Below are positions 3,366 to 23,400 of a stretch of DNA of 40,940 bases, in pieces. The first letter of the stretch is position 1; every line of letters begins with the position of its first letter. The stretch is from a virus. The notes beneath the pieces are model-generated. The model saw only the letters and a list, made by a program, of their open reading frames with translations. It ran no database searches and was not told the DNA's origin. Location: positions 1 through 40,940 of the IMG/VR virus record IMGVR_UViG_3300045912_000193, one strand, 5' to 3'. The translations under genes were made by a program, and so were the position numbers.

Positions 3366-4937
3366 CTACCCCGCCATCCATGACCCTGCGCGGCGCCGAT
3401 TGTAGCGGTTGCCGGCCGGCTGCGGTGGGCCCTCCTCGTCCGTGCGCCGCGGCCAGGGCAGCCAGTCCTCCAGGTCGAATACCCGGGCAATGGCGTCGGC
3501 GAGGTCGTCGTGCAGTGGCACCGGCCAGGGCAGCAGCTCCTCCTCCACGAGCGCCCGCACCAGGTCCACCGACCGCCCCTCGTGGTCGGTGCGGTACATG
3601 TCGACGGGCAGCCAGAACCGCCCCTCGCTGGCGTAGGGGATCAGCCGGTTCACGCGGTCGACCTTGCTGAGCTGGCCGCCGACTTCCTGGATCTCGAAGC
3701 GGTAGTTCTCCCGCTCCTGGATCAGCTTGATGTACTCCACGTCGGCCTGGATGCCATATCTCTCGTAACCGGCCACCATCGGCTTCCAGCGGCGATGCAG
3801 CTCGATGAACGCCTTGGCCCGCTCGGCGATGTTGAGCCGGTCGCGCAGGGCGTCGAGCAGGTACAGGTTCCCGTCCGGCGCCTTGCCGATGACCGCCATG
3901 GCCGTGTAGTCGCTGGTGCGCTTCTTCTCGTTCGCGGGATCGCACAGCAGCGCGCGGTTCATGGCCCGCCAGTTGCTCGCGTCCTGGTAGCGGTGCTCCA
4001 GCCATTCACGCTTGAACGACTGCTTGCTGTCGGCAACGGGGTTCAGCAGCAATTGTGACGCTCCCGCGTAGGGGCCCATCTCCCGGAATTTCTGCGCCAG
4101 CTCGTCCGCGGTGAGCAGCACCGGCAAGCCAGTGGCCGTGCCGTCGACGGTGGCCGGATGCACCCTGGGCGTGGCGGCGCCGCGGTCCATGATGCTGCGG
4201 TAGGTGTCGGCGAAATGGTAGCGGGTGCCGATGATCCGCTTGCGCGGCCGCCGGTCGCCCAGGTTGAGGCTCAGCTCCCAGGCCTCGGTCACCTTGCGGA
4301 TCATGTCCGGGTTGCTGACGCTGCCCAGTGTCACCACGTCGTCGTAGATCAGCACGTTGAAGTGCTTGCCCGTCGGCTGGCCGTCGACCAGGCCCCAGGC
4401 TTCCAGGGTCGCCTCCTTCGGGTTGGAGCGCCGGCGCACGACCAGGCCGGCGTCCTCGCTCCACCGGGGCGCGTCGCGCTCGGGGTTCCTGAACAGCACG
4501 TCCGGGAACAGGTCCAGCAGCAGCTCGTTCGATTGCAGCTCCTGCTTCACCTGGCGCAGGAACGCCTTGGCGATGGGCCGGGTGTGGCTGAAGATACCGA
4601 ACGTCAGTTCGGCCGGCGATAGCAGCGCCTCGTGCCCGTGGCTCGCGAGGATGTCCTGGATGGTCTTGCCGAAGGTGATGATGGTCGACTTGTAGTGGGC
4701 GCGGGCCCACAGGTCCAGGTAGCCGTCAGGGCTCGCCTGGATTTCCCGGCACCTCGCCAGCAGCCACGGGTGTTCCAGGTCCGGCCGGTTCATCGCGTAC
4801 CGGATCAGCCAGTACAGGTCCGTCCTGCACAGCAGCCTGGCCGTCGCCCGAAACTGCGGCGCGGGCAATTTCGCCAAGTAGCCGGCGAGCCTCCGATAGT
4901 CCTGGAGTGTCAGCGCCAACATTTCCGGGTAGGGCAC
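3366..4937 (-). CDS. Terminase large subunit
   Basis: 523 residues. This ATP-driven motor and nuclease cuts and pumps DNA into the prohead through the portal. The ATPase half has a Walker A-like segment (ARAHYKSTIITFGKTIQ, about 98 to 114) and a Walker B (NVLIYDDV, about 202 to 209). The nuclease half has LLCDPA (about 330), YERYG (about 395) and a DDLADAIAR segment near residue 485, fitting the RNase H-like metal site. The start is taken as GTG 4937; ATG at 4922 is an alternative. Its start overlaps the upstream gene by 212 bases in another frame. Confidence 0.92.
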   Translation of the reverse strand: MPYPEMLALTLQDYRRLAGYLAKLPAPQFRATARLLCRTDLYWLIRYAMNRPDLEHPWLLARCREIQASPDGYLDLWARAHYKSTIITFGKTIQDILASHGHEALLSPAELTFGIFSHTRPIAKAFLRQVKQELQSNELLLDLFPDVLFRNPERDAPRWSEDAGLVVRRRSNPKEATLEAWGLVDGQPTGKHFNVLIYDDVVTLGSVSNPDMIRKVTEAWELSLNLGDRRPRKRIIGTRYHFADTYRSIMDRGAATPRVHPATVDGTATGLPVLLTADELAQKFREMGPYAGASQLLLNPVADSKQSFKREWLEHRYQDASNWRAMNRALLCDPANEKKRTSDYTAMAVIGKAPDGNLYLLDALRDRLNIAERAKAFIELHRRWKPMVAGYERYGIQADVEYIKLIQERENYRFEIQEVGGQLSKVDRVNRLIPYASEGRFWLPVDMYRTDHEGRSVDLVRALVEEELLPWPVPLHDDLADAIARVFDLEDWLPWPRRTDEEGPPQPAGNRYNRRRAGSWMAG

Positions 4938-5190
4938 GGTCTTGCTCGGCCTCCAGCGCCTGCTTCACGCGCTCCAGGATATACGCCCGATCCCGGGCTT
5001 CCTCGGACGTGATGTAGCCGGCGGCCAGGCTCCGGTACACGCGCCCCATCTCTTTGCGCACCTCGCCGAGCGTTGACAGCGCGATGCGGCGCCGCATCCG
5101 CGCGCCGGGCTTGGCCGGCGGGATATGCCGGTATGGCACCAGCTCGCCGATGATTGGCGGCCGGTCAACGTCGTCAGGATCGCCGGCCAT
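4726..5190 (-). CDS. Small protein upstream of large terminase
   Basis: 154 residues. The first 85 residues look like a genuine conserved phage protein: basic and helical, with RRRIALSTLGEVRKEMGRVY and a following segment like those often found just upstream of large terminase genes. The last 70 residues overlap the terminase N terminus in another frame and have weaker composition, so the C terminus may be unconstrained. ATG at 5190 overlaps the end of the HTH gene at 5174. A packaging-related role is inferred only from position. It may be part of the small terminase function. Confidence 0.6.
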   Translation of the reverse strand: MAGDPDDVDRPPIIGELVPYRHIPPAKPGARMRRRIALSTLGEVRKEMGRVYRSLAAGYITSEEARDRAYILERVKQALEAEQDRALPGNVGADTPGLSEARRLLGEIARAAVSGDGQAAVQDGPVLADPVRDEPAGPGTPVAAGEVPGNPGEP

Positions 5191-5548
5191 CGAGCGCGCG
5201 ATTGATCCGCGCCAACAGCTTCGGGGCCCGCACCTCGCCGAGCCCTGGTACCAGATTGCGCACGCCCCAGGTGAGCAGCGTGCGCACCTGCTCGGGCCGC
5301 AGGTCGGCCTGGACGATGCAGGCTCGCGGCAGGACGCCCAGCAGCCCACGATGGCGGTGCGTCCAGTGATCCGGATGCGCCTGGGCCAGCAGCAGCTCGG
5401 CGTGCGCTCCGATGGTGTGCTCCGACACGCCCAGGGCGGCGGCCGCGTGCTTCACGCTGCCGTAGTGGACCATGGCGTCGTAGCTGGCCCGGGCCGTCGC
5501 CAGCTCCGTGCGCGGGCGTCGCCGGCCCGCCGTCAGGCGATCAACCAT
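5174..5548 (-). CDS. HTH protein, candidate small terminase subunit
   Basis: 124 residues, basic. A helix-turn-helix is visible around residues 30 to 50 (SVKHAAAALGVSEHTIGAHA), the sort of fold small terminases use to recognise packaging DNA. It lies two genes upstream of the large terminase in the same direction. No oligomerisation domain can be recognised, so a transcription regulator remains possible. ATG at 5548 overlaps the membrane protein stop by 16 bases. Confidence 0.6.
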   Translation of the reverse strand: MVDRLTAGRRRPRTELATARASYDAMVHYGSVKHAAAALGVSEHTIGAHAELLLAQAHPDHWTHRHRGLLGVLPRACIVQADLRPEQVRTLLTWGVRNLVPGLGEVRAPKLLARINRALDGRRS

Positions 5549-7948: not shown

Positions 7949-8278
7949 CTAGGCGTTCCTGTGCGGCCTGGTGGCAATCGCGAGCAGGGACTGGCGGATG
8001 CCGGCGCGGATTTCGGTGACTTCGGGGGTGTTCGGGAGGCCGTGGCCGGGGTAGGCGGCGCGGAGCGTTGCTGCGGCGTGGCGCTTGGCTTCGACCAGCT
8101 CGGCGAGGCGCGCCGGGGTGACGGCGCCGCCGACCTGGGTGAGCACGGCGAGCAGGGTCAGGTTGCAGGCGGCCTCGTAGGCGTCCACGGTGGGGTCGCC
8201 CGGGGGGTGTGCGGGTTTGCTGGCGTGGGGGCCGTAGTACGGCCGTGGGCTGACGGGACGGGGTGGCAGCTTACGCAT
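7949..8278 (-). CDS. Hypothetical early protein
   Basis: 109 residues. A Pro-rich N-terminal 30 residues is followed by a helical Ala/Leu-rich domain (AYEAACNLTLLAVL, then an LVEAKRHAAATLR helix). The start overlaps the end of the replication protein gene by eight bases, so the two are probably cotranslated. A helper role in replication is possible from the coupling but not shown by sequence. Confidence 0.6.
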   Translation of the reverse strand: MRKLPPRPVSPRPYYGPHASKPAHPPGDPTVDAYEAACNLTLLAVLTQVGGAVTPARLAELVEAKRHAAATLRAAYPGHGLPNTPEVTEIRAGIRQSLLAIATRPHRNA

Positions 8279-9047
8279 GGCGGCGGGCTCCGGCGGGTGG
8301 GTCGCGGGTGATCCAGTTCCGCCAGGCCTTGAGCCAGTCGGAGCGTGGGGTCTTGAACTCGTGGTCGCAGAACCGGTGGGTCTCGCGCTCGACGAACTCG
8401 TAGCTGTAGCCCTGGGCGAGGGCCCATTCGAGGGCCTCCTCGGTCACGACGAAGTCCTCGGGGACGAAGTGCGCCAGGTGGCCGCGGCGCTGGCGGTTCG
8501 GGCCTGGTCCGGCGGGTTTCATCGGCGGCGGGCGCGAGGGAGCGGCGCCAGCCGCGACCGTTCCCCCCTCACACTCCCCCCTTCCGCCCCCCCTAACTGG
8601 AGATACAGAGGGCTGAGAATCTGATAGGTAATTGGTTTGGTTTGGTTTGGATGGTAGAGCCGGGCTAGGATTGTGCTGTGGCAAATTTGTGGCATTTGCT
8701 ACGGCCGTTGCGTTGATTTTCTTGGCTTTTCCGCCTTTTGACCCGGCCTCGGCGCGCTTCCGCGAGACTTCCATCGCGTGCGCACGAACGACCTCAAGAC
8801 GACAGTTCTGCGACCTAACTCCGTCCGAACTCGGGAATTTCGTGCGCACCTGGGGCCAGGCGCGGGCGAAGGTCCGGCGGTCCCAGCGCACCAGGCGGCG
8901 GACCTTTTCGGGGTCGGCCGGGAGGGACCCGATGGACCACTGGTAGGCCAGGCAGAGGGCGTACAGCGCCTGCTCCTCGCCGGTCCATTCGGCGGTGCTG
9001 GCCAGGAAGTCGCCGACGTACAGGGGCAGGTATGCCTCGCGGCTCAT
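8271..9047 (-). CDS. Replication initiator-like protein, DUF1376 domain
   Basis: 258 residues. The N-terminal domain (1 to about 95) is DUF1376-like: YLPLYVGDFLASTAEWTGEE, YALCLAYQW, LPADPEKVRRL. A Lys/Gly/Asn/Pro-rich linker follows (about 100 to 175), then a C-terminal domain with FVPEDFVVTEEALEWALAQG and DWLKAWRNWI, as in phage replisome-organiser proteins. It probably binds the origin and recruits host helicase, since no phage polymerase or helicase is visible. The DNA encoding the linker is locally AT-rich with short direct repeats, as in lambda gene O. Confidence 0.75.
   Translation of the reverse strand: MSREAYLPLYVGDFLASTAEWTGEEQALYALCLAYQWSIGSLPADPEKVRRLVRWDRRTFARAWPQVRTKFPSSDGVRSQNCRLEVVRAHAMEVSRKRAEAGSKGGKAKKINATAVANATNLPQHNPSPALPSKPNQTNYLSDSQPSVSPVRGGGRGECEGGTVAAGAAPSRPPPMKPAGPGPNRQRRGHLAHFVPEDFVVTEEALEWALAQGYSYEFVERETHRFCDHEFKTPRSDWLKAWRNWITRDPPAGARRHA
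8600..8710. other. Candidate replication origin inside the initiator gene
   Basis: A visibly AT-richer island in a GC-rich genome, holding a TTTGG tandem run (8632..8650) and two TGTGGCA copies 11 bases apart (8677..8683 and 8688..8694). It lies in the linker-coding part of the DUF1376 gene. Lambda-type phages place iterons in the same part of gene O. The similarity of arrangement is observed; origin function is inferred. Confidence 0.35.
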
Positions 9048-9050
9048 GGG

Positions 9051-9339
9051 TCAGCCCAGGAACGAGCCAAAGATGTTGCGGCTGCGCTGCTCAATGGCCA
9101 GGGCCTCCAGGCGGCCCACTTCGTCCACCTGCTGCGCCACCGCGCTGCGCCAGTCGTCGGCCCGGAGGGCGCTGCCGGAGGGCGCTGCCGGTGGGCGGCG
9201 GCGGCGCCTTGGGGCGGGCGCCGGCGGCCGGCGGTGGCACCACGTAGGCGCCGAGCTGGAGGGCGCCGCGGTTGTTCACGTACAGCGGCGGCGGCACTTC
9301 GGGCCGTGGCAGCAGCCAGCGGCGCAGGTAGCGGAGCAT
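9051..9339 (-). pseudogene. Small gene frameshifted by a 13-bp tandem duplication
   Basis: Translation from ATG 9339 (strong AAGGAG ribosome site) runs normally for about 50 residues: MLRYLRRWLLPRPE, then a Pro-rich region. It then enters two copies of a 13-bp unit and leaves frame. The other frame resumes with a plausible C terminus, DDWRSAVAQQVDEVGRLEAL, ending at 9051 just before the replication gene. Removing one copy gives an intact 91-residue protein. Either a real mutation or an assembly artefact. The function is unknown. Confidence 0.75.
9164..9189. repeat. 13-bp tandem duplication causing a frameshift
   Basis: The unit GGAGGGCGCTGCC occurs twice end to end (9164..9176 and 9177..9189). 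Thirteen is not a multiple of three, so the second copy breaks the overlying minus-strand reading frame. Confidence 0.95.
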
Positions 9340-9367
9340 CACGCGTTCTCCTTCCAGGTGCGCGGGC

Positions 9368-9604
9368 CTAGCCGGCCCGCAGGTGCTTCACTGGGGCGCC
9401 GGGGCACAGGGCCTCGGCGACCACGTAACCATCACTCTCGCGGTCCAGGTGGATCGCCAGCGCCAGGTTGCAGGACTTGCCGCCGTAGACGACGTTGCGC
9501 AGGTGCTGATAGCTGACGCCGCAGCGCCGGGCCAGCGCCTGACGCTCCGCCACCGGGAGCGCCAGGAACCAGGACTTCAGACGGGTTCGGGTTCGGGTGT
9601 TCAT
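9368..9604 (-). CDS. YdaS/Cro-like HTH regulator
   Basis: 78 residues. A helix-turn-helix covers residues about 18 to 45: ERQALARRCGVSYQHLRNVV, then a GGKSCNLALAIHLDRESDGYV segment, the YdaS/Cro-type arrangement with a C-terminal strand near ALCP. It is the best candidate for the protein that binds the six dyads at 9.6 to 12.1 kb, one of which lies in its own promoter (autoregulation). No Shine-Dalgarno precedes ATG 9604 and the predicted transcript starts about two bases upstream, so its mRNA is probably leaderless. Repressor or Cro-like role cannot be told apart. Confidence 0.8.
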   Translation of the reverse strand: MNTRTRTRLKSWFLALPVAERQALARRCGVSYQHLRNVVYGGKSCNLALAIHLDRESDGYVVAEALCPGAPVKHLRAG

Positions 9605-9612
9605 GGGCCGGA

Positions 9613-9641
9613 ACGATACTCGCCCGGGTACTCCGGCGCAA
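9613..9641 (-). promoter_or_regulatory. Regulator promoter with overlapping operator
   Basis: On the minus strand: -35 TTGCGC (9636..9641), 17-bp spacer, -10 TATCGT (9613..9618). Operator dyad at 9616..9631 reads ATACTC-GCCC-GGGTAC on the plus strand and overlaps the first three -10 bases. Predicted start of transcription is almost at the ATG of the regulator gene. Confidence 0.65.
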
Positions 9642-9649
9642 CGCCTCCG

Positions 9650-9940
9650 TCAGCCCTCCCAGGGGTTCGCGCCGCCGCCGCCGATCCAGGCCTCGACCTT
9701 CTCGCGGCTGCCGTAGCTGCCGACCGGCGCGTAGTTGTACAGCCAGCTCGCGTACTCAAAGAGCTTTGACTTGTTGCGATTGTCGGCCGCGGCGGCCGCC
9801 TTCAGCAGGTTGTTCTCCAGCACCGCGCTCAGGAACCCGCCCACCGGGACGCGCTCCTCGAAGTAGGCCACCAGGTCGCTACCGCTGGGCAGCTCCAGGG
9901 CTGCCGCGCGGGCCGCATCACTCAGCTTGTAAGCACTCAT
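9650..9940 (-). CDS. Conserved phage hypothetical protein
   Basis: 96 residues, ATG 9940 with GGAGG six bases upstream. A helical protein with VAYFEERVPVGGFLSAVLEN, an NLLKAAAAADNRN segment, FEYASWLYNYAP and a Gly-rich C terminus. The aromatic and Asn positions look conserved, as in small phage proteins of unknown role. It has its own operator-bearing promoter, so it belongs to the regulated early set. Confidence 0.75.
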   Translation of the reverse strand: MSAYKLSDAARAAALELPSGSDLVAYFEERVPVGGFLSAVLENNLLKAAAAADNRNKSKLFEYASWLYNYAPVGSYGSREKVEAWIGGGGANPWEG

Positions 9941-9974
9941 CGTTAGCCTCCTGTCAGAAAATCTTCAGGCCCCG

Positions 9975-10004
9975 ACTGCACGCCCGGGAGTACAGCCCGG
10001 TCAA
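9975..10004 (-). promoter_or_regulatory. Early promoter with overlapping operator
   Basis: On the minus strand: -35 TTGACC (9999..10004), 18-bp spacer, weak -10 TGCAGT (9975..9980). Dyad at 9978..9993 reads GTACTC-CCGG-GCGTGC on the minus strand, a weaker right half. The register relative to the -10 is the same as at the other five sites. Confidence 0.5.
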
Positions 10005-10039
10005 CGCCTATAGCGGGCTGCCCTCGTACCAACCGGCGC

Positions 10040-10411
10040 TCACGCCCCCATCCCCAGGGCGGCCTTCGCGGCCGCCGCAGCCTCGGGGTAGAAGTAGCCG
10101 ATCCCCTCGCCCAGGATCCGTGCCTTCGACGGCAGGCCAGGCCACTTCCCGCCCGCCACGATGTCGTCGTAGAACGCGAGGATCGGAACGGCCATTTCCA
10201 CGTCCTCCTCCCAGTACACCGGTTTGGCCCCAAACCTGGAGTCGACCAGGTGCGCCCAGGCCGGCAGCGCCGCCACCCGCTCCCGGCTCAACCAAATGCC
10301 GCCGTGGCTCGGGCTGCTCACCAGGACAATGCCCGGCGCCAGTTCCTTCGCGTCGTCGATTTTCCCCCAGGGCGACCAGTCGCCAACCCGGGGCTTGCTC
10401 TCGTATGCCAT
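10040..10411 (-). CDS. Hypothetical early protein
   Basis: 123 residues. N-terminal part has WSPWGKIDDAKELAPGIVLV and SHGGIWLSRERVAALP; the middle has PVYWEEDVEMAVPILAFYDD and the C terminus GEGIGYFYPEAAAAAK. It looks like a compact alpha/beta domain of the kind sometimes seen in DUF7007-like phage proteins, but this match is uncertain. It starts by TGATG overlap with the first gene of the leftward unit; a GTG at 10414 is an alternative start. Confidence 0.7.
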   Translation of the reverse strand: MAYESKPRVGDWSPWGKIDDAKELAPGIVLVSSPSHGGIWLSRERVAALPAWAHLVDSRFGAKPVYWEEDVEMAVPILAFYDDIVAGGKWPGLPSKARILGEGIGYFYPEAAAAAKAALGMGA

Positions 10412-10713
10412 CACGCTACTCCCTTCAACGCCGGCCGCGACACCGCGGCCTTCAGCTTGTCCACGTCACTGCACGACCCGCTCGGCACGCTGACGATCCG
10501 CCAGAGCACCGACTCGGGCACCGACTTCAGCCACTCCGCTACCGCCGGCTCGATAGCCGCCAACGCGACCGCCGGCTTGTGGCCGAGCAGCAGCTCCGCC
10601 GCACCAGCCGCCGCCAGGGCCGCCTCGCCGCACTCCGCATCTCCCATCGCAATGTGCCGGGCGGCGAGCGCCAGGGCCGAGGCCCGAAAGAGCAGCAGTT
10701 CTTTCCCGTTCAC
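10411..10713 (-). CDS. First gene of the leftward early unit, unknown
   Basis: 100 residues from GTG 10713, chosen because AAAGGAGG lies six bases upstream. A longer open frame continues upstream but crosses the promoter region and is not credible. The protein is Ala/Leu-rich and helical (FRASALALAARHIAMGDAE, then a GHKPAVALAAIEPAVAEWL segment). The function is unknown. It is transcribed from the operator-controlled leftward promoter and coupled to the next gene. Confidence 0.7.
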   Translation of the reverse strand: MNGKELLLFRASALALAARHIAMGDAECGEAALAAAGAAELLLGHKPAVALAAIEPAVAEWLKSVPESVLWRIVSVPSGSCSDVDKLKAAVSRPALKGVA

Positions 10714-10735
10714 GATGTCCCTCCTTTCGACTGCA

Positions 10736-10764
10736 ACTGTACTCCGGCGATTACTTACATTCAA
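10736..10764 (-). promoter_or_regulatory. Leftward early promoter with operator
   Basis: On the minus strand: -35 TTGAAT (10759..10764), 17-bp spacer, -10 TACAGT (10736..10741). The operator at 10739..10754 reads GTACTC-CGGC-GATTAC on the plus strand and overlaps the first three -10 bases. It faces away from the rightward promoter, with the two operator centres 49 bp apart. Confidence 0.75.
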
Positions 10765-10778
10765 GTCCACTGAGGGCC

Positions 10779-10806
10779 TTGACAGCGGTACTCCCGCGAG
10801 TACACT
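10779..10806 (+). promoter_or_regulatory. Rightward early promoter with perfect operator dyad
   Basis: Consensus -35 TTGACA (10779..10784), 16-bp spacer, -10 TACACT (10801..10806). The spacer contains the best dyad of the window, GTACTC-CCGC-GAGTAC (10788..10803), with perfect 6-bp arms. Bound protein would cover spacer and -10 and block polymerase. Confidence 0.85.
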
Positions 10807-10834
10807 GAAGCCTGGACGTGAATGGAGCTTGACC

Positions 10835-10876
10835 ATGGGAAAGCGTGACGGATTCAAGCGGGGCGGGGCGGTATGA
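10835..10876 (+). CDS. 13-codon leader ORF
   Basis: The first ATG after the rightward promoter, with GGAG upstream, encodes the basic peptide MGKRDGFKRGGAV and ends by ATGA overlap with the next gene. It may act as a translational coupler or leader peptide; the peptide could also be functional. The coding evidence is only position, ribosome site and overlap. Confidence 0.45.
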   Translation: MGKRDGFKRGGAV

Positions 10877-11160
10877 ACATCGTGCGGTTCCACGACGGTG
10901 CGCGCTACTGCGCTGCCCTGGAGGCCGGTGTCGGGCGCAAGTACCGACACCTGGTTGTCATCACGGAGTACGGCGTGCGCGTCCTGGACGTGCCCCTTGA
11001 CGAGCCGACCGAAGTGCTGGGCCCGGTCACCAGGCGCCAGCTCGCCACGTTCCGGCGGGCGGGCAAGGTGTTCGGCATCACGGCCGGGGCCCGCCAGGCG
11101 CTCGATGCGGCGGGGCTTGCAATTCGTAATCAGGCGAGTACAATCGCCGGTGGAGAGTAA
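10873..11160 (+). CDS. Hypothetical early protein
   Basis: 95 residues. The N-terminal half is beta-rich (MNIVRFHDGARYCAAL, RHLVVITEYGVRVLDVPL), the C-terminal half a basic helical region (TRRQLATFRRAGKVFGIT, ARQALDAAG). It is the first substantial gene after the rightward promoter, translated by overlap from the leader ORF. The next promoter lies inside its 3' end. The function is unknown. Confidence 0.65.
   Translation: MNIVRFHDGARYCAALEAGVGRKYRHLVVITEYGVRVLDVPLDEPTEVLGPVTRRQLATFRRAGKVFGITAGARQALDAAGLAIRNQASTIAGGE
11117..11144 (+). promoter_or_regulatory. Second rightward early promoter with operator
   Basis: -35 TTGCAA (11117..11122), 16-bp spacer, -10 TACAAT (11139..11144). Dyad GTAATC-AGGC-GAGTAC at 11126..11141, overlapping the first three -10 bases. 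It lies inside the end of the preceding gene and serves the gene at 11176. Confidence 0.75.
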
Positions 11161-11175
11161 CAGAGGAGCGTGACC

Positions 11176-11619
11176 ATGTACGAACGAAGCTACGGCGCCA
11201 AATACGTCAAGGACCTGTCTGTGGTCGACATCGCCAAGCGGATCCGGGAGGACATCAAGGCGGCGGTGGCCGCCGGTGAGCTGCCGGCAAGCCTGAAGGT
11301 GAGCGTGCGGAAGGTTCATCACCGGAGCCTGGCGGTGAAGCTGTCCGGTGGCGTGGACGGCCCGCTCTACGTGGCCGGCCGGTACAAGGGCGACGCCCGG
11401 CTGAGCAACGAGGCGATCCGGATCCGGCGGGCGGTCGAGAAAATCGCGAACGCCTACAACTACGACGGGTCCGAAATCAGCTTGGACTACTTCGACGTGA
11501 ACTACTACCTGAGCGTGGACTTCGACTGGGAGTGGGCCCGGCTGCGGAACGCGGAGTACGAGGCCGCGCGGCGGGGTGAGCTGGTCGAGGAGCTGGACCT
11601 GGACATGCTTGGGTTCTGA
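11176..11619 (+). CDS. LPD29-like hypothetical protein
   Basis: 147 residues. N-terminal pattern KDLSVVDIAKRIREDIKAAV, then LKVSVRKVHHRSLAVKL, and later YNYDGSEISLDYFDVNYYL resembles the domain LPD29 found within phage and plasmid polyvalent proteins; this is a by-eye match. ATG 11176 is chosen because GAGGAG lies seven bases upstream; GTG 11170 lies too close to it. The function of LPD29-type domains is not established. It is under its own operator-controlled promoter. Confidence 0.7.
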   Translation: MYERSYGAKYVKDLSVVDIAKRIREDIKAAVAAGELPASLKVSVRKVHHRSLAVKLSGGVDGPLYVAGRYKGDARLSNEAIRIRRAVEKIANAYNYDGSEISLDYFDVNYYLSVDFDWEWARLRNAEYEAARRGELVEELDLDMLGF

Positions 11620-11622
11620 CCG

Positions 11623-11841
11623 ATGAAAGCTCTGAAAATCGAGGCGAATCGTGTCGGCAGGCGTTACGCGCTGGTGCCGCTGGGCGACTCGTTCGGCGTA
11701 TACGCGGAGTGCCGGAACTACGACGGATCCGTGCCCGGTGGGATCCGGGCCTCGTGGCGCTACTGCGCGAAGGGCCTGAACCGCGAGGAGGCCGAAGCGC
11801 TGTTTGCGCGCAAGGTTGCGGGGAAGGCCAGGCGCGGATGA
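11623..11841 (+). CDS. Hypothetical early protein
   Basis: 72 residues, ATG three bases after the upstream stop. Beta-rich, basic: KIEANRVGRRYALVPLGDSF, then YAECRNYDGSV, and a C-terminal helix NREEAEALFARKVAGKARRG. It ends by ATGA overlap with the RMF-like gene. No family is recognised. Confidence 0.65.
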   Translation: MKALKIEANRVGRRYALVPLGDSFGVYAECRNYDGSVPGGIRASWRYCAKGLNREEAEALFARKVAGKARRG

Positions 11842-12086
11842 AGGAACCGCCAGGCTTCGCGAGCTGGAATGGCGCGCTGCGAGGGGCGTACTGCAAAGGG
11901 TATGACGCAGGCGCTGCTGGTCTTGGTGTCGAGGCCTGCCCCTACCATGACAAGCGCAAGCAGAGTGGCCGAGTAACCTGGTCGCGAGCGTTTCGGAGCT
12001 GCTGGCTGGAAGGCTGGAACGCCGCACGCCAGGACGACCCGATAACGGGTTACTACTCTGACCGGGCCCGCCCCGGGGGATATTGA
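11838..12086 (+). CDS. RMF/CrpP-like small protein
   Basis: 82 residues. It carries the pattern of ribosome modulation factor and its phage or plasmid relatives (CrpP fold): GAYCKGYDAGAAG (about 16 to 28), CPY at 34 to 36, WLEGWNAAR (56 to 64). Bacterial RMF dimerises 70S ribosomes into inactive 100S particles. A phage copy expressed early might adjust host translation or do something unrelated, as some members are not ribosome factors. It is longer than RMF (55 residues) through an insert between CPY and WLEGW. Confidence 0.7.
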   Translation: MKEPPGFASWNGALRGAYCKGYDAGAAGLGVEACPYHDKRKQSGRVTWSRAFRSCWLEGWNAARQDDPITGYYSDRARPGGY

Positions 12087-12090
12087 CCTA

Positions 12091-12120
12091 TTGCGCGGCG
12101 TGTACCTGATCGGGTACACT
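12091..12120 (+). promoter_or_regulatory. Third rightward early promoter with operator
   Basis: -35 TTGCGC (12091..12096), 18-bp spacer, -10 TACACT (12115..12120). Dyad GTACCT-GATC-GGGTAC at 12102..12117 in the same register as the other sites. It drives the gene at 12155, which has a strong AAGGAGG ribosome site. Confidence 0.65.
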
Positions 12121-12154: not shown

Positions 12155-12601
12155 ATGGCGACCCGAGCGAACATCATCCTGCGCTACGGCGCGAGCGAGG
12201 TCTACCTGTATCGCCACTGGGACGGGTATCCGTCCGAGACTGGCGCGGACATCCTGAAGAAGGCCACCGAGGCGGGCAGCCTAAACGGGCTGCTGGAGGC
12301 GCTGCTGAGCGAGCGCGACGGCGGCGACCGCGTCTACGAGCTGACCAGCGGCATGCACGGGGACATCGAGTGGGGCTACGCGGTCGAGGTCGCCCGCGAC
12401 GGTAGCCTGCGGTTCGGGGTCCGGGAGTTCCCGATTGGCGCTGGCCCGGACCGGGTGAACGGGGCATTGATCCCGGCGATCTACGACGCGGCCAGTTTCG
12501 CCGAAGTGGTGAACGCGGCAATCCGCGAGTACAACCGCCGCGCCCGGACCATGGGATTCAAGCTCCGGGATTATGTTGCTGTGAATGGAGGTGCGTCGTG
12601 A
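12155..12601 (+). CDS. Conserved phage early protein
   Basis: 148 residues. It starts MATRANIILRYG, followed by VYLYRHWDGYPSETG, a pattern common in small phage and plasmid proteins of unknown function that begin MATRA and contain YxHWDGYP. The rest is a mix of helices and a beta segment (EWGYAVEVARDGSLRFGV). ATG 12155 follows AAGGAGG by seven bases. It is regulated by the operator immediately upstream. Confidence 0.75.
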   Translation: MATRANIILRYGASEVYLYRHWDGYPSETGADILKKATEAGSLNGLLEALLSERDGGDRVYELTSGMHGDIEWGYAVEVARDGSLRFGVREFPIGAGPDRVNGALIPAIYDAASFAEVVNAAIREYNRRARTMGFKLRDYVAVNGGAS

Positions 12602-13008
12602 CGAACAACGGGACGATCTATTGGCGCAGCCTGGTGCCCCGGCGCACCGGGGCTGACCGGGCGGTGGTGCTGCGCGTCGCCCGGCAGGGCGACTATCTGC
12701 TGGCGATCATCGAGCGCACGCAGCACGTCGAGGACGATGGCGTCAGCGACGTGCTGGCCGTCATGCGTGACTCGCCGTTTGCTACTAACGCGCTGATTGA
12801 CTGGGCGTCGCGGGCCAGCGTCGCAGAAGTCCTGGCGATTGCCGGCGTAACGGTAGGTGAGGTTCCACCGGTGCGCATGCCGGAGGGCGCGGCCGATCTC
12901 GCCGCCGCGCTGCGCGCGACCCTGGACGCATTGCGCGATGGCGACACGGCCGCGCGGAGCGAGGCCGAGGCGGTCGCCGAGGCGGCCCTGGCGAAGGTGG
13001 GGGGTTGA
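12598..13008 (+). CDS. Hypothetical early protein
   Basis: 136 residues, GTG start overlapping the upstream stop. N-terminal beta-rich part (RAVVLRVARQGDYLLAIIER), middle helices, and a long Ala/Glu/Arg-rich C-terminal helix (about 98 to 133). No family is recognised. It is probably expressed with the gene before it. Confidence 0.65.
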   Translation: MTNNGTIYWRSLVPRRTGADRAVVLRVARQGDYLLAIIERTQHVEDDGVSDVLAVMRDSPFATNALIDWASRASVAEVLAIAGVTVGEVPPVRMPEGAADLAAALRATLDALRDGDTAARSEAEAVAEAALAKVGG

Positions 13009-13032
13009 GATGATGCGAAGGGAGGACTCACA

Positions 13033-13458
13033 GTGAGCGACAACGTCGACCGCATCCGGGAGCGCCAGGACGCTATCGCCATCGACCGCTACTGGGGCGA
13101 CGCCGACCCGCCAGAGGCCGACGACTACGAGGAGCCGGATTACGAGGATCCGCCGCCGCTCACGGCCTACCAGCAGGCGTGCCTGGACGCGCAGCGCGAG
13201 CGCGACACGCTGCTCTGCATGCGCCCGGCGGCGCAGCTCCACATGCTGCGGTTGTGGCTGGAGCAGGCCAGCGGAGGCGACATCCGCGAGGCCCTCGTCA
13301 ATGGCTTGGAGCACGTCCCCGGCGATGAACTGCGCGAGCTGCTCGTCGACGTGGTGTGCGGCACCGGGCCGCAGAGCGCATTCATTGGCCGCGTGCAGGG
13401 CGTCCTGGCCCTGGGGGCGTGGCGTTTTATCGACCAGGACATCGAGGAGCAGAAGTGA
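13033..13458 (+). CDS. Hypothetical early protein, acidic N terminus
   Basis: 141 residues, GTG start with GGGAGGA upstream. The first 50 residues are strongly acidic and Pro/Tyr-rich (ADPPEADDYEEPDYEDPPPL); the rest is helical with Leu-rich segments (LHMLRLWLEQA, ELRELLVDVV). The acidic region could mimic nucleic acid or bind a basic partner, which is speculation. No family is recognised. Confidence 0.65.
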   Translation: MSDNVDRIRERQDAIAIDRYWGDADPPEADDYEEPDYEDPPPLTAYQQACLDAQRERDTLLCMRPAAQLHMLRLWLEQASGGDIREALVNGLEHVPGDELRELLVDVVCGTGPQSAFIGRVQGVLALGAWRFIDQDIEEQK

Positions 13459-13676
13459 TGCCGGACAGAATCTACGTTGTCGAGAATCGTGAAACTGGGG
13501 CGCAGGCTCTGGTGCGGGCGACTACCCGCACCGGCGCGGTTGGCATCATCGCCAGCCGCCAGTTTTCCGCCCGCGTGCCGAAACAGGATGAGCTGGTGCA
13601 GCTCGTGCGGCAGGGCATGCCGGTCCTTGAGGCTGGCGAGGCGCAGGATGGAGGGGGCAGCGATGGCGACCAGTAA
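13458..13676 (+). CDS. Hypothetical early protein
   Basis: 72 residues, starting by TGATG overlap. The frame MPDRIYVVENRETGAQALVR followed by a short helix and VRQGMPVLEAGE resembles small phage proteins that couple to neighbouring genes. The function is unknown. Confidence 0.65.
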   Translation: MPDRIYVVENRETGAQALVRATTRTGAVGIIASRQFSARVPKQDELVQLVRQGMPVLEAGEAQDGGGSDGDQ

Positions 13677-13992
13677 GCGACCGAACCCGGATGAAGTGCT
13701 AAAAGCCGCGGCGGCGGCGTTCCGGGAAATAATTCGCTCAGCCGAACAGACTTCTGACGGCGACACGCAGTACGAGATGGTGTTCATGGGCGCAGCTATA
13801 TCACTCATGCTGGCCAAGGTCTCCGCGGGATTCGCGGCCGCCAGCTCTACCGCGGACACGGCGGCGGAGCGCGGCCCCGAGCAGCAATTGTCGAAGCTCG
13901 CTGAGCTTGCTGGCCTGCTGCTGCCAGAAGTGGCGGATGACCTGGCCGTCGCGCTGACGGCGGCCAATCTTTCCCGGGGTGGCACATGTTGA
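13663..13992 (+). CDS. Hypothetical helical early protein
   Basis: 109 residues, ATG 13663 with GGAGG upstream, overlapping the previous gene. Almost entirely helical and Ala-rich (PDEVLKAAAAAFREIIRSA, AAISLMLAKVSAGFAAA, LAELAGLLLPEVADDLAVAL). No transmembrane segment is clear. It overlaps the exonuclease start, so it may be coexpressed with the recombination pair. Confidence 0.65.
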   Translation: MATSKRPNPDEVLKAAAAAFREIIRSAEQTSDGDTQYEMVFMGAAISLMLAKVSAGFAAASSTADTAAERGPEQQLSKLAELAGLLLPEVADDLAVALTAANLSRGGTC

Positions 13993-14852
13993 CCGACGCG
14001 CAACGCGAGGCGCGGCTTTCGGGCCTGGGGGGCAGCGACGCAGCCGCGGCCGCTGGGCTGAGCCCGTGGAAAACGCCGCTGGAGCTGTGGCTGGAAAAAA
14101 CGCGGCGCCTGGAGTCAGTCGTCCTGGAAAACGAGGCGATCCGGTGGGGGAACCTGCTGGAGCCAGTCATCCGCCAGGAGTACGAGCGCCGATTCTCCCG
14201 GGCCCTGGCGGTGCCAGCGGAGCCGGTGCGCTCCCCGCGAGCCGAGTTCCTCATGTGCCTGCCCGACGGCCTGGCCGACGACCGCTTGGTCGAAATCAAG
14301 ACGACCGGCAGCAGCCACGGCTGGGGCAAGCAGGGCACCGACCAGGTGCCCATGCACTACCTGATCCAGGTGCAGCACAACCTGCTGGTGACGGAGCGCG
14401 AGCTGGCCGACCTGGTGGTGCTGATCGGCGGCCAGGACTTCCGGGTCTACCCGATCCCTGCCGACCACGAGCTACAGGCGATGCTGCTGGAGGTCGAGAC
14501 GGCGTTCTGGGCCAAGGTGCAGGCCGACATCCAGCCCGAGCCGACCTGGGAATCGCCGCGCGCCCTGGACCTGGTGAAGCGCCTGCATGCCGGGACCGAC
14601 GGCAGTCGCATCGAGGCCGACGATGAGCTGGTCCGCTGGCGCATGGTGCGCGACGAGGCGCTGGAGAAGGCGCGCAGCTACCAGGCCGTCGCCGACGGCG
14701 CCATGGCCCATCTTCTGTGGCGCATGGGCGCGGCGTCCGAGCTGGCGTTCCCCGACGGCAAGGCCCTGCGGCGCCGACTGGTCCAGCGCAAGGGTTACAC
14801 CGTCGAGCCCGGCGAGTACATGGACATTCGTTTCGTCAACCTGAAGGAGTAG
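13986..14852 (+). CDS. YqaJ-family phage exonuclease
   Basis: 288 residues. A lambda-exonuclease-like PD-(D/E)XK nuclease that resects double-strand ends for annealing. Motifs: GGSDAAAAAGLSPWKTPLEL (15 to 34), GNLLEP (55 to 60, E59), CLPDG (D94), LVEIKTT (E103, K105), then QVQHNL about 128 to 133. These match the YqaJ catalytic core. Its partner annealase gene follows five bases later. Start ATG 13986 overlaps the preceding gene. Confidence 0.9.
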   Translation: MLTDAQREARLSGLGGSDAAAAAGLSPWKTPLELWLEKTRRLESVVLENEAIRWGNLLEPVIRQEYERRFSRALAVPAEPVRSPRAEFLMCLPDGLADDRLVEIKTTGSSHGWGKQGTDQVPMHYLIQVQHNLLVTERELADLVVLIGGQDFRVYPIPADHELQAMLLEVETAFWAKVQADIQPEPTWESPRALDLVKRLHAGTDGSRIEADDELVRWRMVRDEALEKARSYQAVADGAMAHLLWRMGAASELAFPDGKALRRRLVQRKGYTVEPGEYMDIRFVNLKE

Positions 14853-14856
14853 CAGC

Positions 14857-15588
14857 GTGAGCACAGAAATTGCCGAACGGCGCAGCCCGATCCTGGCCCT
14901 GGCGAAGCGGCTGGGCGCCCGCGACGATGCGCCCGCCTTCCTGTCCAGCCTGCGCAAGGTGGCGTTCCCGACCGAGAAGGGCGGCACCGTCACCGACGAG
15001 CAGTTGTTCGCCCTGGTGGTCGTCGCCAACCAGTACCAGCTCAACCCGTTCACGCGCGAGCTGTACGCGTTCCCGGCGAAGGGCGGCGGCATCGTGCCGA
15101 TCCTGTCCGTTGACGGCTGGGCGCGGATTATCAACGAGCACCCGGCCTGCGACGGCCTGGAGTTCGTCGAGGCAGAGGACGGGTCGTGGGTCGAGTGCAT
15201 CATCTACCGGAAGGACCGCGCCCATCCTACCCGCGTGCGCGAGTGGCTGGCCGAGTGCAAGCGACCGACTGAGCCCTGGACGAAGTGGCCACGGCGGATG
15301 CTGCGCCACAAGGCAATGATCCAGTGCGCGCGCGTGGCCTTCGGGTTCTCGGGGATCTACGACCCCGACGAGGGTGGCCGCATCATCGAGGGCCAGTTCA
15401 GCGAGGCCGGCGACGCGTCGCCGGCTGCGCCCAAAACCGGCGTCGCAGGAGCCAAGGAGAAGCTCGCCAAGGCGATCAAGCGCGAGCCTGAGCCGGAGCC
15501 AGCGGCCCCTGAGCCGGAGCCTGCCAGCGAGCCCGAGCCTGCGCCTGGCGGGAACGACGAGTTCCTGGCCGGGTTCGGGGCCGACTGA
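14857..15588 (+). CDS. bet: Bet/RecT-family single-strand annealing protein
   Basis: 243 residues, GTG start after AAGGAG. It binds the single strands made by the exonuclease and anneals homologous DNA. The Bet core is clear: ANQYQLNPFTRELYAFP (about 57 to 73), VPILSVDGWARIINEHP, then VECIIYRKDR, WPRRMLRHKAMIQCARVAFG near residue 148. The C-terminal 45 residues are Glu/Pro repeats (EPEPEPAAPEPEP) ending acidic, perhaps for partner binding. With YqaJ it forms a Red-like pair. Confidence 0.92.
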   Translation: MSTEIAERRSPILALAKRLGARDDAPAFLSSLRKVAFPTEKGGTVTDEQLFALVVVANQYQLNPFTRELYAFPAKGGGIVPILSVDGWARIINEHPACDGLEFVEAEDGSWVECIIYRKDRAHPTRVREWLAECKRPTEPWTKWPRRMLRHKAMIQCARVAFGFSGIYDPDEGGRIIEGQFSEAGDASPAAPKTGVAGAKEKLAKAIKREPEPEPAAPEPEPASEPEPAPGGNDEFLAGFGAD

Positions 15589-17435: not shown

Positions 17436-20400
17436 TCACTGGATGTAGTTGGATCCGATGGCGCGCGGCCGGCCGCGCTCGGTCATGAGCTTGGTGATGA
17501 CTTCCGGGTGCTGGTACAGCCAGCGCGTGCGCGCGGCCTCGGTCACCTGGTTCCACTGCCGGTCCAGTATCGCGCGGGCCAGCTCCGGGTTCGACGCCAT
17601 GACAGCACGGAACTGCGGGCTTTGCGCGAGCGGAGTGAGCACCTGCCACCGCGCCTGACCGATGGCGGTGGCGTAGCTCTCGTATTCCTGGTCGTTCAGC
17701 TCGACGTTCTGGATGCGCCGCTGTGGCGGCCGGTGGCTGATCCCCAGCCGCAGCATGGTCTCGGCCAGCGGGTCGCTCCGCTGCTGCGATACCGCAGTCG
17801 GCACGCCGATGGTCTGCGTCTGCATGATCGGGTCGCCGCCGATGTCGATGCGCTTGGCCAGGGCCTCGCGCTCCGACGGCAGCCGCTCGCGCACCCGGTC
17901 CATGAGCGTGCGAGCCTGGCGCGTGAACGGGTCTCCCTGGCGGGCCACCTGGCCCATGAGCACGGACGCCGGCATGGCGCTGGCCGCCATGTTCTGCGCC
18001 CAGCTCGCCAGGTAGCGGTCAGGGTCGGCGTAGGCCTGGGCGAAGTCCGTCACGCCGCGCAAGAAGGTCTTGTCCCCCAGGTTGAGCGCCAGCGCGGTGA
18101 CCATCATTGCCGGGATTTTCTCCAGCTCGCCCGCGGCCATGTAGCCGGCCAGCTCGTAGAAGTCGGCCGCCATGCCGAGCACCATGCCGGCCGGCTCCAG
18201 CCGGTTGTACTTGACCCACTGGTCGCCGATCTTCACCGAGTACGGCTGCCAGCCGGTGCGCATGAGCAGCGCGCGCTCGCCGTCATCGTCGGGCCCGGCG
18301 CCCGACAGCAGGCCCTGGGCCGCCAGGCTGAGCGTCGCCAGCATGAGTCCGGAGCCGACGATCATGCGGCCGCGGGCCAGGGCCGCGTCGCGGCCACCGG
18401 CCGAGAGCGCGTCGCGCACTTCCTGGCGCAGGGGCGCGGCCGGCGTGTAGTCGATGGCGGTCTTGAGGATGTTGGTCGGGGTGCGCACGAACGGCACGAT
18501 CATCCGGCCGATCTTCGACTTGTTCAGGTAGTACGTCCCCAAATTGCCGAGCTGGCCAAGGGGCTGCGTGAACGTGCCGCGCGCAGCGGCGTCGCGGGCC
18601 CGCTTGATCCAGTCGGGCCGGTTCATCACGTCGCCCATGAGCCGGTGGAACTCCGCCATGGGGTCGGCCGGGTTCGTGCGCAGGGCCTCGCCCATGGCGA
18701 TGTCGGCCAGCTCGGCGTAGTAGCCGATGCTCTTGAAGAACTCGTCCTCGGCGCGGAGCAGGCGCCCAGGCAAGCGGACGATGCGGCCCAGGGTTCCGCC
18801 GATGGCCCGCTGCTTGGCGGCCTCAATCTTGTCGCGCGGGTCGATCACGCCCTCCTCGGTCTGGAACGCCGTGACGCCGTTGCGCAGGCCGATGGTCGCG
18901 GCGTGCGGGAGGGCGGCGATGCGGGCCGCCACCTGGCGCAGGCTGTAGTCCCGGGACGTGGCCGCGCCGACGGCCGCCGCGGCTTCCTCCAGCACCCGGT
19001 AGAGCCCGTTGCTGGTGATGTTGACACTGTGGGTCGTCGGGCCTGACAGCAGGCCGTTGATCCAATACTCGTACCACTTGTCCCACCACGTCGCGCGATA
19101 TTCGGCGCGCGTCACGCCGAGCACCTGGTCGACGGTGCCAGCCTGGTTGACACGTTTGATGAAGTCGTCCAGGTGCTGCTCGCTGCCGCCGCCCAGTTCC
19201 TCCATGAGCTGTAGCGCGGTCTTGTTGAGTTGCGCCTGCTTGCGCAGGATGTTCAGCGCGCGCCCGGCCTCGGTGCGGTAGCCCATGCTCGGCGCCAGCA
19301 GCATGCCGAGCTTCTCGCGCGCAGCGAGCACCGCGAGCTTGTCGTCGCGCGCGCCCGTCTGCGCAGCGCGGTCGGTCAGCGTGACGAGCTGGCGTACCGC
19401 ATCGCCCAGGATCATCCCGTAGGCTTCCAAGGTCTCGGCGTTCGCCGCACTGCCCGGGGCTGCCCGCACCAGGCCGTCGAGCGTGATGCCAAGCTCGGCC
19501 TGCACCTTCTGGATGGCGGCCTGCTCGGTTGTGTCCCAGGTGCGCGTGCCGCGGCGCTGGGCCTCGATGGGCGCTTCCATCGTGCCCATGATGTCCAGCA
19601 TGACCTGGAGTTCGGAGTCCTGAAGGCCGCCGAACTGGGCCAGGCTGTAGTTGCCGCCGCCCACCTCCACCCGCTCCGGCCGGAACATCTGCTGCTGCCG
19701 AACCGTCTGTTCTGGCGAGCGGCGCGCGGCAAAGATCCCCGACGCCACCGCCGAGCGCAGCCAATCCGGCATACCGTCCACGTTGTCGTCGAACATATCC
19801 GCGTCGGGCGACGCGTCGCGCGCAACCGCAGTTCGCGATAGCGCCGCCACGTCGAGCAGTGGCTGGCTCCACACGACCAGCGTCTGCGAGCCTTCCTCGC
19901 CTGGCACCTGCGCCCCAGGGATGCCGAGGGAGTCCAGCACCAGCGACGCCGCGCGCTGGCCGCCATCCTTGGCCAGGCGCCGGTAGATTGCTTCGCCAGT
20001 CGCGTCGCGATCCACCAGGTTGCGGGCCTCCTCTGCCGGCAGCGCGGCCGATCGGAGCAGGCGCCCCAGGGCCTCGCGCACGGGAGGCGGCTGCTCGCTC
20101 AGTCGCGACCCCCACTGCAACATGCGTCCGTCGGCGATCTCGTCTGGGATGTCGGACTCGTACAGGTAGGCCGTCGGGCCGTTAGGACGCTTGCTGCGCT
20201 CGGCGTAGTGCAGCGCGACATCCTTAGCGTTCGTCAGGTAGATGCCCCACCCGTAAATCTGATTGCTTGCGTGGTCAGGGATGAGGTCCAGGTCGAACCG
20301 GTCGAAGCGGGTGGGCGAGCCGTGCCAAGCACGCTTGGCCAGGATGCTTGGGTTGTTCGGGTCGAAGGTGCCGACGTTGTTGACGCTCTTGATCTGTTCC

Positions 20401-23400
20401 GGCGAGAACACGACCCACGAGTCGGAGCCGGCGTCCTCGTACCTGTTCCGGTAGACGAGTCCGTCGAAGCCGGCAGCCTTGGCGTCAGCGATAACCTGCG
20501 ACCAGTCGGTCGTTTGGTCCGGGACCCGCAGCGGGCGCTGAATGGACAAATACGCCGCGGTTAGCGCTTGGTCCTCCTCGAAATGGTCCCCTTGCGTGTG
20601 CTGGAACCAGGCCCATTTGCGGGCGCCCTTGATCGCCTCGTCATAGGTCGCGTAACCATCCGAGTCCTCCAGATCCCCCGAATAGTCCTGGCCGGAATAC
20701 CAGTACCAGCGCCCATTGGTGGGATCCTGCTGGGCATCCATGCGGGCGAGCCAGCGGTCCAGGGGCGCATTCATCATGCGGTCCTGCGCCGCCTGGGCGG
20801 TGCCGAAATGGAAGCCGTTGCCGTTAACCACCGGCACGGGGTCGTCCAGCTCGTTGAACAACCCGCCGTGATAGACGACCAGCGGCTTGCCGTCGGGACG
20901 CACGACCTTGCTATCGCCGAACCAGGCCTTGAACTCGGGGGATTGCGTCAGCGCGCGTGACGCGAACAGGGATTTCTGGAGCTGGGTTGGCTGGCCGGCC
21001 TGGCCCTGGGGGCGCTGGAGCTGGAAGGCAGCGGCCTCCTGCTCCTGGACCTGTTGCTCGATGGTGCGCCTGGTTTCGCCCGGTGGCAGCGGCAGCTCCG
21101 CCTGCTGCTCACCTGCCTGCGGGTCGATGGCGGCAAAGACAGTGCCGGAGCGCGTCGTGCCCATCGGGCGGGCGGGGCGCAGCATGCCATCGGCCGCTCG
21201 CCCGAGCAGATACACCAGGTCGTTACGGGACAGGTTCACGCGGAAGCCCAGGCGGCGGAGCGCCTCGCGGAACCAAGCCAGCACCTTCTGCGTCAGCGGG
21301 TGCTTCGGACTCCGCTCGGCCAGGTGCGCGATGATCTCGGCGCTTTCGATGTCGGCATCGAGCTGGCCGTACACCTCGCCCACCTCGTCGGCGATGCGGC
21401 GGATGATCGGATCTCTGGCCTTGAGCCGCTGCACCTGGGCGGTGAGCCATGGCCAGCGGTCGCCCATGAGCCGCATCATGCCGGCGTGGCCGACAACCTC
21501 GTGGGCCAGCACCGCCTCGGCATGGAACCGCCCGCGCAGGTTGCTGGCCACCACGTACACGCGGCCCGTGTTGTGGTCGTAGGCGCCGGACACGTCTGGA
21601 CCGAGCGCCTGGAGCACCTCGGGCGGCAGCGCGCCAGCGTTCGGCACCAGCACCAGCGGCGGAGCGCCGGGGTTGCGGGCGCGGTACGCGGCCAGCAGGT
21701 CGCGCGCCGCGGCGAACGTGATGCCGGGCCGGAACGTCCCGACGCGGGCGGCCAGGGCCGCCGCGCCGCGGAACGTGTCGATGGTCTGGCGCATCACCTC
21801 GGTCGGTGACGCCGGCCCGCCGAACATGCTGCCCTGGTCGGTGCGCTGGGCTGCGGCCTGGTTGGCGTAGGCCGTGAGAGCCTCGGCGATGCCGTCGCGC
21901 GAGGCGATCCGCTGAAGGTTCGGCGCCATGAGCAGGCGCAGCACGCCCTTCTCCATCGCCTCGCGCTCCTGCTCGAACATCCCCCGCTGCTGGACGAGTT
22001 CGGCGATGGGCGTGCCAGCCTGGCGGGCGGCGCGCAGGCTGGAGATGGCGCGGGCAATTTCTGGTGCCACGTCGAACGATTGGTCCACCCGGCCCTCGGC
22101 GATGGCCTGGCGCAGCGACGCGACGGCCGGGGCGGCGTCCAGCAGGGCCCCGGTGATGCTCCGCTGCACGTCGTCGCGCGATTCCAGGGCCGCCGTCAGA
22201 ACCTGGTCGGCCGTGGGATCGCCGCCATAGGCCCGGTACATGACCGCCGCTTCCAGCCGCCGCACCCCGTCGGCGTTGAGGGTGCCGTTCGCCTGGATCA
22301 TCGAACCACGGGCCGCGGCCGGCAGGCGCGCCAGGAACGCCCTCGCGAAGCCGATGTTCGCGGCCCCGCCGATGTCGCCCGGCTGGAGCACGTCGATGAC
22401 CGCCGAGTCCAGCAGGCGCGAGTCGGCCGCCGCCTGCTCGATGGTGGACATCCCGAGCTGGTCCGGCCGGTTGGCCTCCACGGTGTAGTCCAGGATCTGC
22501 TGGGTGCTCAGCTCGTTGATGCGCTGGCGCACCAGCACCGGCACCTGCATGCCCGCCACGTCGAAGCCCTGGGCGGCCAGCCAATCGCGGTAGGCCTGGA
22601 ACCGCTCCGGGAACCGCTGGGCAGCCAGGCGCAGCGCCTGGACCCGACCGTTCCCGGATTCCACGATGCCCTGCCCGTCGATGATGGGAGCCCCATCCTT
22701 GGCCGTGGGCGTCAGGCCGAGCAGTTCCGGCCGCAGGCTCGACGCGATTTCCTGCACCTGGGCGGCGCTGCCGACCCGGCTGCGGTCGCGCGGCTGGCGC
22801 TCCTGCGGGTAGCCGGGCTGGTCGGACGTGACCAAGGACGCGGCCTCCACGACCATCGGCTGCACGTCCAGCGTTATGTCGGGCCCGACCGCAATGCGTT
22901 GCGGGGCTGCTACAATCGGGTCCGTGGACAAGCCACCCGACAATCGCGGCGGGGTTCCGCTCGTACCCGAGCCCGGCGCCAGGCTGTTTGAGCTGGACGG
23001 CCGCAGGTTCTGGCTGGGCAGGGCGCGCAAGGTCGAGGAACTCCCCGACGGCACGTTCGAGCGGTGCGGCGGCAAGGCGCTGGAAGTCGCCCGGTACGGC
23101 GACGAGCTGGGCGTGACCTGGCCGCCGGCCGCCTCGGCCTCCAGCAGTGCCACAAACGGCGCCAAGGCCTCGGAGTAAATCTGCCGGCTGAGCGCGGCCA
23201 GGCGATCAAGCGCAGCCGTCTCGTCGGGCGTCAGGTCACGCCCCGCCGCCTTGGCCGCCGCCTCAATCGCCCGCGCCTGCACGTAAATCTTGTGCCCCTC
23301 GCCCTGCTTCGCATCGAACAGGGCGCGCGGCATGATCTGGATTTCGTAGATGCGGCCGCCCATCCGCACGTTGACCTTGTGGTCCATGTAGCCGAACTCG

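Follow-up and report, generated by a model that had tools for sequence, protein, structure and literature searches.

Six 16-bp dyads of the family GTACTC-N4-GAGTAC lie within 2.5 kb of the viral record IMGVR_UViG_3300045912_000193 (IMG/VR), every one of them between the -35 and -10 of a sigma-70-like promoter. The record, which was analysed over its full length of 40,940 bases (the window), is classed as linear and looks like a near-complete phage genome. We consider it probable that each dyad is a single operator for a YdaS-type Cro encoded by the phage itself, at 9368-9604, and that together they form a Cro-only early regulon in a temperate-derived phage. The register of operator and promoter is not new: it follows an old rule by which a Cro operator lies between the -35 and -10 elements and ends in the -10. 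What is new is that six promoters each carry a locked single operator, against the usual two in this family; no new principle is involved.

A sequence-only reading of the window had described dyads at 9616, 9978, 10739, 10788, 11126 and 12102, and we recovered all of them there, with three promoters pointing leftward and three rightward as it had proposed. At 6/6 sites the final three bases of the dyad are the opening three of the -10 hexamer that it had named, and a TTG-type -35 hexamer lies 16-18 bp away (spacers 17, 18, 17, 16, 16 and 18 in order of position). The dyad with perfect arms, at 10788, indeed occupies the strongest promoter. A composite search of both strands of the window (dyad with at least 9 of 12 arm matches, T....T in register and TTG at 16-18 bp) returned these six sites alone, in agreement with the claim that no comparable site occurs elsewhere, while 60 Markov simulations gave a mean of 0.03 matches and a maximum of 1. 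As the composite pattern was taken from the sites themselves, the expectation of 0.03 gauges specificity in the window and not unbiased discovery.

A matrix built from the six sites ranked them 1-6 (15.0-23.0 bits), and the next site, which is intragenic, reached 11.8 bits; the scan that had been suggested as a check thus gave no equal matches inside genes. With each site left out in turn, four sites still ranked first and 9978 second, whereas 12102 fell to rank 29, so that it is credible mainly through its promoter register and less by its sequence. A sigma-70 scan of the whole window in which the dyad was not used gave its top three scores to dyad promoters. Looser dyads with 2 mismatches were found inside genes at 2934, 10202 and 35852, where there is no promoter. 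These results support a single operator family at six promoters.

All six promoters precede a start codon, at 8, 34, ~22, ~28, 31 and 34 nt from the -10, and one of them is the promoter of cro itself. A purine-rich ribosome site stands ahead of most of these start codons; cro has none, because its -10 lies only 8 nt from the ATG, and its mRNA is predicted to be leaderless. Genes to the left of 10.75 kb run leftward and those at 10.8-16 kb run rightward. The six promoters thus feed both arms.

The 9368-9604 product had been named as the likely binder, and both profile comparison and predicted fold support this choice. It matched the transcriptional repressor family PHROG 35 weakly (E 5e-5), and tblastn found 29-46% identity to YdaS-type proteins of Pseudomonas, Burkholderia, Paraburkholderia and Moraxella phages, with E 3e-6 to the annotated YdaS of Pseudomonas phage PG1. 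Alignment by hhalign to 21 viral YdaS proteins, using a profile built without the window protein, gave a probability of 98.8% (E 1.1e-16, 38% identity over 68 columns). Six aligned members all match the Pfam YdaS model at E <= 0.5 (best 1.1e-9). The AlphaFold model (mean predicted local distance difference test score 90.4) had its best PDB matches in 8co2 and 8c7k, YdaS of CP-933P, with probability 1.00 and a template modelling (TM) score of 0.71 for 8co2, as expected for a YdaS fold. By sequence profile and modelled fold, the protein is therefore a distant YdaS-type Cro. The gene comes first in a leftward operon, followed by 9091-9342 and by the replication-type, primosome-like gene 8271-9047; with the dyad at 9616 in its own promoter, cro heads the replication operon as in YdaS-type Cro systems. 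For YdaS of CP-933P, experiments have shown binding to both promoters of the immunity region and a role analogous to that of Cro (PMC8630535). A profile of six divergent YdaS proteins was set aside as a scan query, being too diverse. The closest relative found of the window Cro (42% identity over 91%) lies in Acinetobacter baumannii NZ_CP104448.1 (locus L302), with TTTAGT-N4-ACTAAA-like dyads near two divergent promoters; this accession is labelled a 4.09-Mb 'plasmid' and is probably a mislabelled chromosome.

The same register was observed in lambda and in other phages with a YdaS-type Cro. With the annotated operators of lambda, OR1 ends in GATA, the opening four bases of the PR -10 GATAAT, and OL1 likewise ends in the opening four bases of the PL -10 GATACT; both pairs share the window register within 1 bp. 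When dyads locked to a -10 were sought de novo, the phages IPK, PG1 and LPPA56 each gave exactly two, at PR before cro and at PL on the opposite strand. Among 48 non-identical YdaS loci of at least 12 kb, two register-locked operator-promoters were present in 42, one in 5 and three in 1. Many viral contigs carry a TTAGC-N4-GCTAA operator upstream of cro that ends on a -10 TAATNT. The centre of the window dyad lies 1 bp further from the -10 than in this family, which indicates that the rule concerns position and not an identical base count. The BgVeeders33 group carries TACACC-N4-GGTGTA-like operators in tandem, and no more than 6-7 nt separate its -10 from the start codon of cro. In BgVeeders33 itself (L169, 5882-5899), a LexA-like box, ACTGTACATGCATACAGT, overlaps the -10 of the promoter upstream of the YdaS-type cro, and its sequence suggests direct SOS control.

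The YdaS-Cro phages (CP-933P, PMC8630535; PG1, LPPA56 and IPK) therefore resemble the window in having a homologous Cro, a 16-bp 6-N4-6 dyad between -35 and -10 and the same register at PR and PL within ~1 bp; IPK and the BgVeeders33 group also share the leaderless-type cro start (6-7 nt). They differ in having two operator-promoters, often with extra neighbouring operators, whereas the window has six single sites. In lambda, too, the O1 operators of the divergent early promoters lie in the spacer and reach the -10, but lambda has two clusters of three operators each, at which CI and Cro compete, against one operator per promoter here. The arrangement had been called unlike the clustered operators of lambda; this stands for six single sites as opposed to two clusters and does not extend to the register, which is that of lambda OR1 and OL1 and of PR and PL in the YdaS-Cro phages.

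The same reading had also called the system a switch, which our searches did not support. Neither an S24 peptidase domain, the mark of CI, nor HTH_3 was found in the window, S24 domains being counted with a hidden Markov model. The tyrosine integrase model PF00589 was equally negative in the window and was positive in 14/14 control genomes. A Pfam scan of 41 other gene products gave no integrase, recombinase or repressor family. This leaves one candidate repressor with no visible opponent, whereas 44/61 YdaS loci have an adjacent S24 CI. In the matrix scan no promoter had a nearby second site of the kind that lambda O1-O3 clustering would entail. The system would work as the Cro side of a lambda-type immunity region does, but as CI and clustered operators both define such a region and both were sought without success, the window is not filed as a lambda-type switch.

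The integrase and the S24 domain were likewise not found in the close portal relatives G001 and G002. A promoter-dyad scan of portal relatives (L005-L045, G002-G012) gave no comparable clusters. Synteny at RecT, RecE and the primosome-like gene links two IMG/VR contigs, L173 and L174, to the window. Each carries a gene for a P22-Cro-type protein that begins 8 nt after a -10, and in neither was the S24 domain detected. L173 has a GTATAG-N4-C[CT]ATAC dyad in exactly the window register (GTATAGCCGGCCATAC at 4528), with more sites at 4270 and 4291; L174 has a longer dyad, GCGAGCCG-N4-CGGCTTAC, that ends at the same -10 bases. These contigs thus share with the window a cro start 8 nt after a -10 that overlaps the phage's own dyad, and differ in their type of Cro, their dyads and the number of sites (one to three versus six). 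L173 also holds a short open stretch at 4302-4481 (-) with a weak HTH_3 match, which adjoins the leftward promoter and reads like the start of CI; its sequence is suggestive of what may be a remnant of a CI gene. Exact matches to GTACTC-N4-GAGTACANT numbered at least 119 in viral contigs and were rejected as evidence, since a 14-base pattern would turn up about as often by chance in so large a collection.

Dispersed operators are also known from other phages. The C1 repressor of P1 acts at single operators scattered over the genome. In L5 and D29, one repressor has single sites across the genome (stoperators), and D29 is a lytic derivative that retained them (PMC5712189). Such regulons resemble the window in having several sites outside a cluster, for which we infer one common binder here; stoperators, however, are asymmetric and lie mostly outside promoters, whereas the window sites are dyads, all promoter-locked and within 2.5 kb. 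PY54 Cro has a single 16-bp palindromic operator and a leaderless mRNA, the latter being predicted for the window, but PY54 Cro binds one site beside cI and leaves its own synthesis unrepressed (PMC4488713).

Table 1 Features of the regulated region, with coordinates in the window
Coordinates	Strand	Feature	Basis
9368..9604	-	cro: YdaS-type Cro, 78 amino acids; candidate repressor of all six promoters	profile and predicted fold
9616..9631	-	operator ATACTCGCCCGGGTAC in the cro promoter TTGCGC-17-TATCGT; -10 ends 8 nt before ATG	
9650..9940	-	early gene, 96 amino acids; no family match	
9978..9993	-	operator GCACGCCCGGGAGTAC; promoter TTGACC-18-TGCAGT, 34 nt before ATG of 9650-9940, AGGAGG upstream	
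10411..10713	-	early gene, 100 amino acids, GTG start at 10713, AAGGAGG upstream; then DUF7007 gene 10040-10414	
10739..10754	-	operator GTACTCCGGCGATTAC; promoter TTGAAT-17-TACAGT, PL-like	
10788..10803	+	perfect-arm operator GTACTCCCGCGAGTAC; PR-like promoter TTGACA-16-TACACT, the strongest; adjoins 10739 back to back	
10835..10876	+	possible 13-codon leader peptide MGKRDGFKRGGAV, ATG 10835; stop overlaps ATG of next gene	read from sequence
10873..11160	+	early gene, 95 amino acids; kept in closest relative G001 (65% over 80 amino acids)	
11126..11141	+	operator GTAATCAGGCGAGTAC; promoter TTGCAA-16-TACAAT, 31 nt before ATG 11176	
11176..11619	+	early gene; then 11623-11841 and RMF-like gene 11838-12086	
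12102..12117	+	operator GTACCTGATCGGGTAC, weakest by leave-one-out; promoter TTGCGC-18-TACACT, 34 nt before ATG 12155	
12155..15588	+	rightward early block; its last genes are RecE-like (13986-14852) and RecT/Bet-like (14857-15588), for recombination	

The features of the regulated region are collected in Table 1. The leader-peptide candidate sits directly after the strongest promoter (10788). In the operon of the 11126 promoter, the product of 11838-12086 (+) matches the ribosome modulation factor (RMF) domain PF04957 at E 3.9e-5 and 24.1 bits (cut-off 27.9) and is a possible phage-encoded ribosome hibernation factor. Elsewhere in the window, recognised products are the portal (PHROG 156), the large terminase, the major head protein, RecE, RecT/Bet and an endolysin, and the contig termini fall between the gene at 394-1347, which adjoins the portal, and the major head gene. 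A 124-amino-acid protein with the helix-turn-helix-like sequence KHAAAALGVSEHTI is encoded at 5174-5548 (-), upstream of the terminase genes; its Pfam matches are all sub-threshold, and it is possibly a small terminase or a late regulator. The late region contains a single open frame of 2786 amino acids (17436-25796, -). No structured RNAs or tRNAs were found in the window, and terminators were not in excess of shuffled sequences.

Several points weigh against a Cro-only regulon. Binding, repression and start sites are all predicted from sequence. The link between protein and dyad is drawn from autoregulatory position and from analogy within the family, because the Cro falls below the Pfam cut-off and has no close viral relative: the window protein alone scores 12.2 bits with the Pfam YdaS model, under a cut-off of 30 that is a scoring threshold and not a biological feature, and a direct IMG/VR search found no relatives of it. 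The contig of the closest relative, G001, breaks inside the regulatory region, just upstream of the 10873-11160 homologue; it has no GTACTC-like dyad in the portion that it covers and, owing to the break, cannot speak to conservation of the six sites. The linear contig of the window might also miss a small piece.

Among the alternatives, the same protein could be a true immunity repressor that keeps the early genes silent through its six operators while the phage is dormant, plasmid-like or in a carrier state, that is, a one-repressor lysogeny. Sites at all early promoters, that of the replication-type operon included, would suit such a role, as would an own operator weaker than the main ones, which would permit maintenance expression; moreover, large plasmids carry a few distant portal relatives, and an integrase is present in portal relatives more distant than G001 and G002 (G005, G006, G009). 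We regard this as unlikely, however, as the characterised relatives of the protein are Cro and not CI, the gene products scanned included no recognisable integrase, partition or other maintenance function, and a scan of 84,980 prokaryote genomes found one portal relative only.

A real two-repressor switch would result if a second, unrecognised phage repressor, such as a non-S24 CI analogue like PaaR2 of CP-933P, shared the operators. The CI analogue of CP-933P indeed has no sequence similarity to lambda CI (PMC8630535), several early genes of the window are without a family match, and the S24 domain went undetected in 17/61 YdaS loci as well. Nevertheless, no gene is divergent from cro, unlike cI in the relatives, the window gave no HTH_3 match, and there was no helix-turn-helix among the early products scanned with Pfam. 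We assign this possibility a low probability.

It is more doubtful still that a host regulator, LexA-like or other, occupies the dyads and couples early transcription to the physiology of the host. The related contigs searched held no closely related dyad, and the promoter upstream of cro in the Burkholderia phage BgVeeders33 does contain a LexA-like box. A different dyad in each phage at a near-constant position is nevertheless what phage-specific Cro proteins would produce, and one of the sites stands ahead of the phage's own cro gene; a literature search for GTAC-type LexA motifs found none. Chance or selection-free resemblance, for example of promoters that happen to be palindromic, is highly improbable: 9978 and 12102 are marginal by sequence alone in the leave-one-out test, but six composite matches stand against 0.03 expected and the register is kept in unrelated dyads of relatives.

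If the six dyads are operators of the phage's Cro, a Cro dimer on the dyad, between -35 and -10 and touching the -10, would keep RNA polymerase out. Infection would be followed by expression of two divergent early gene sets from the six promoters, with replication leftward and recombination and small unknown genes rightward. Cro, probably translated from a leaderless mRNA, would accumulate and shut the promoters off by site quality, its own included. The matrix scores suggest occupancy of 10788, then 10739 and 11126, then 9616, then 12102 and 9978. The central pair 10788/10739 and 11126 would be shut off first, 9616 later and 12102 and 9978 last; early and strong shut-off of the central pair would be followed by cro autoregulation. 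Such a layout would be the PR/PL arrangement of temperate YdaS-Cro phages expanded from two to six operator-promoters, with CI and integrase lost.

Taken further, the window may represent a virulent lineage that lost CI and integrase, kept Cro and multiplied the operator from two to six promoters. Cro, from a leaderless, autoregulated source, would then time the whole early programme by itself and in a graded manner, with promoters closing in order of affinity. We advance this extended scenario tentatively, at somewhat below an even chance. On this reading, the phage would be an explicit case in which, after loss of CI, the Cro side of a lambda-like switch spreads to more promoters and does not decay. 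A simple rule, by which the Cro operator lies between -35 and -10 and ends in the -10, holds across dozens of YdaS phages, and it offers a way of locating early promoters and Cro proteins in phage genomes that lack annotation.

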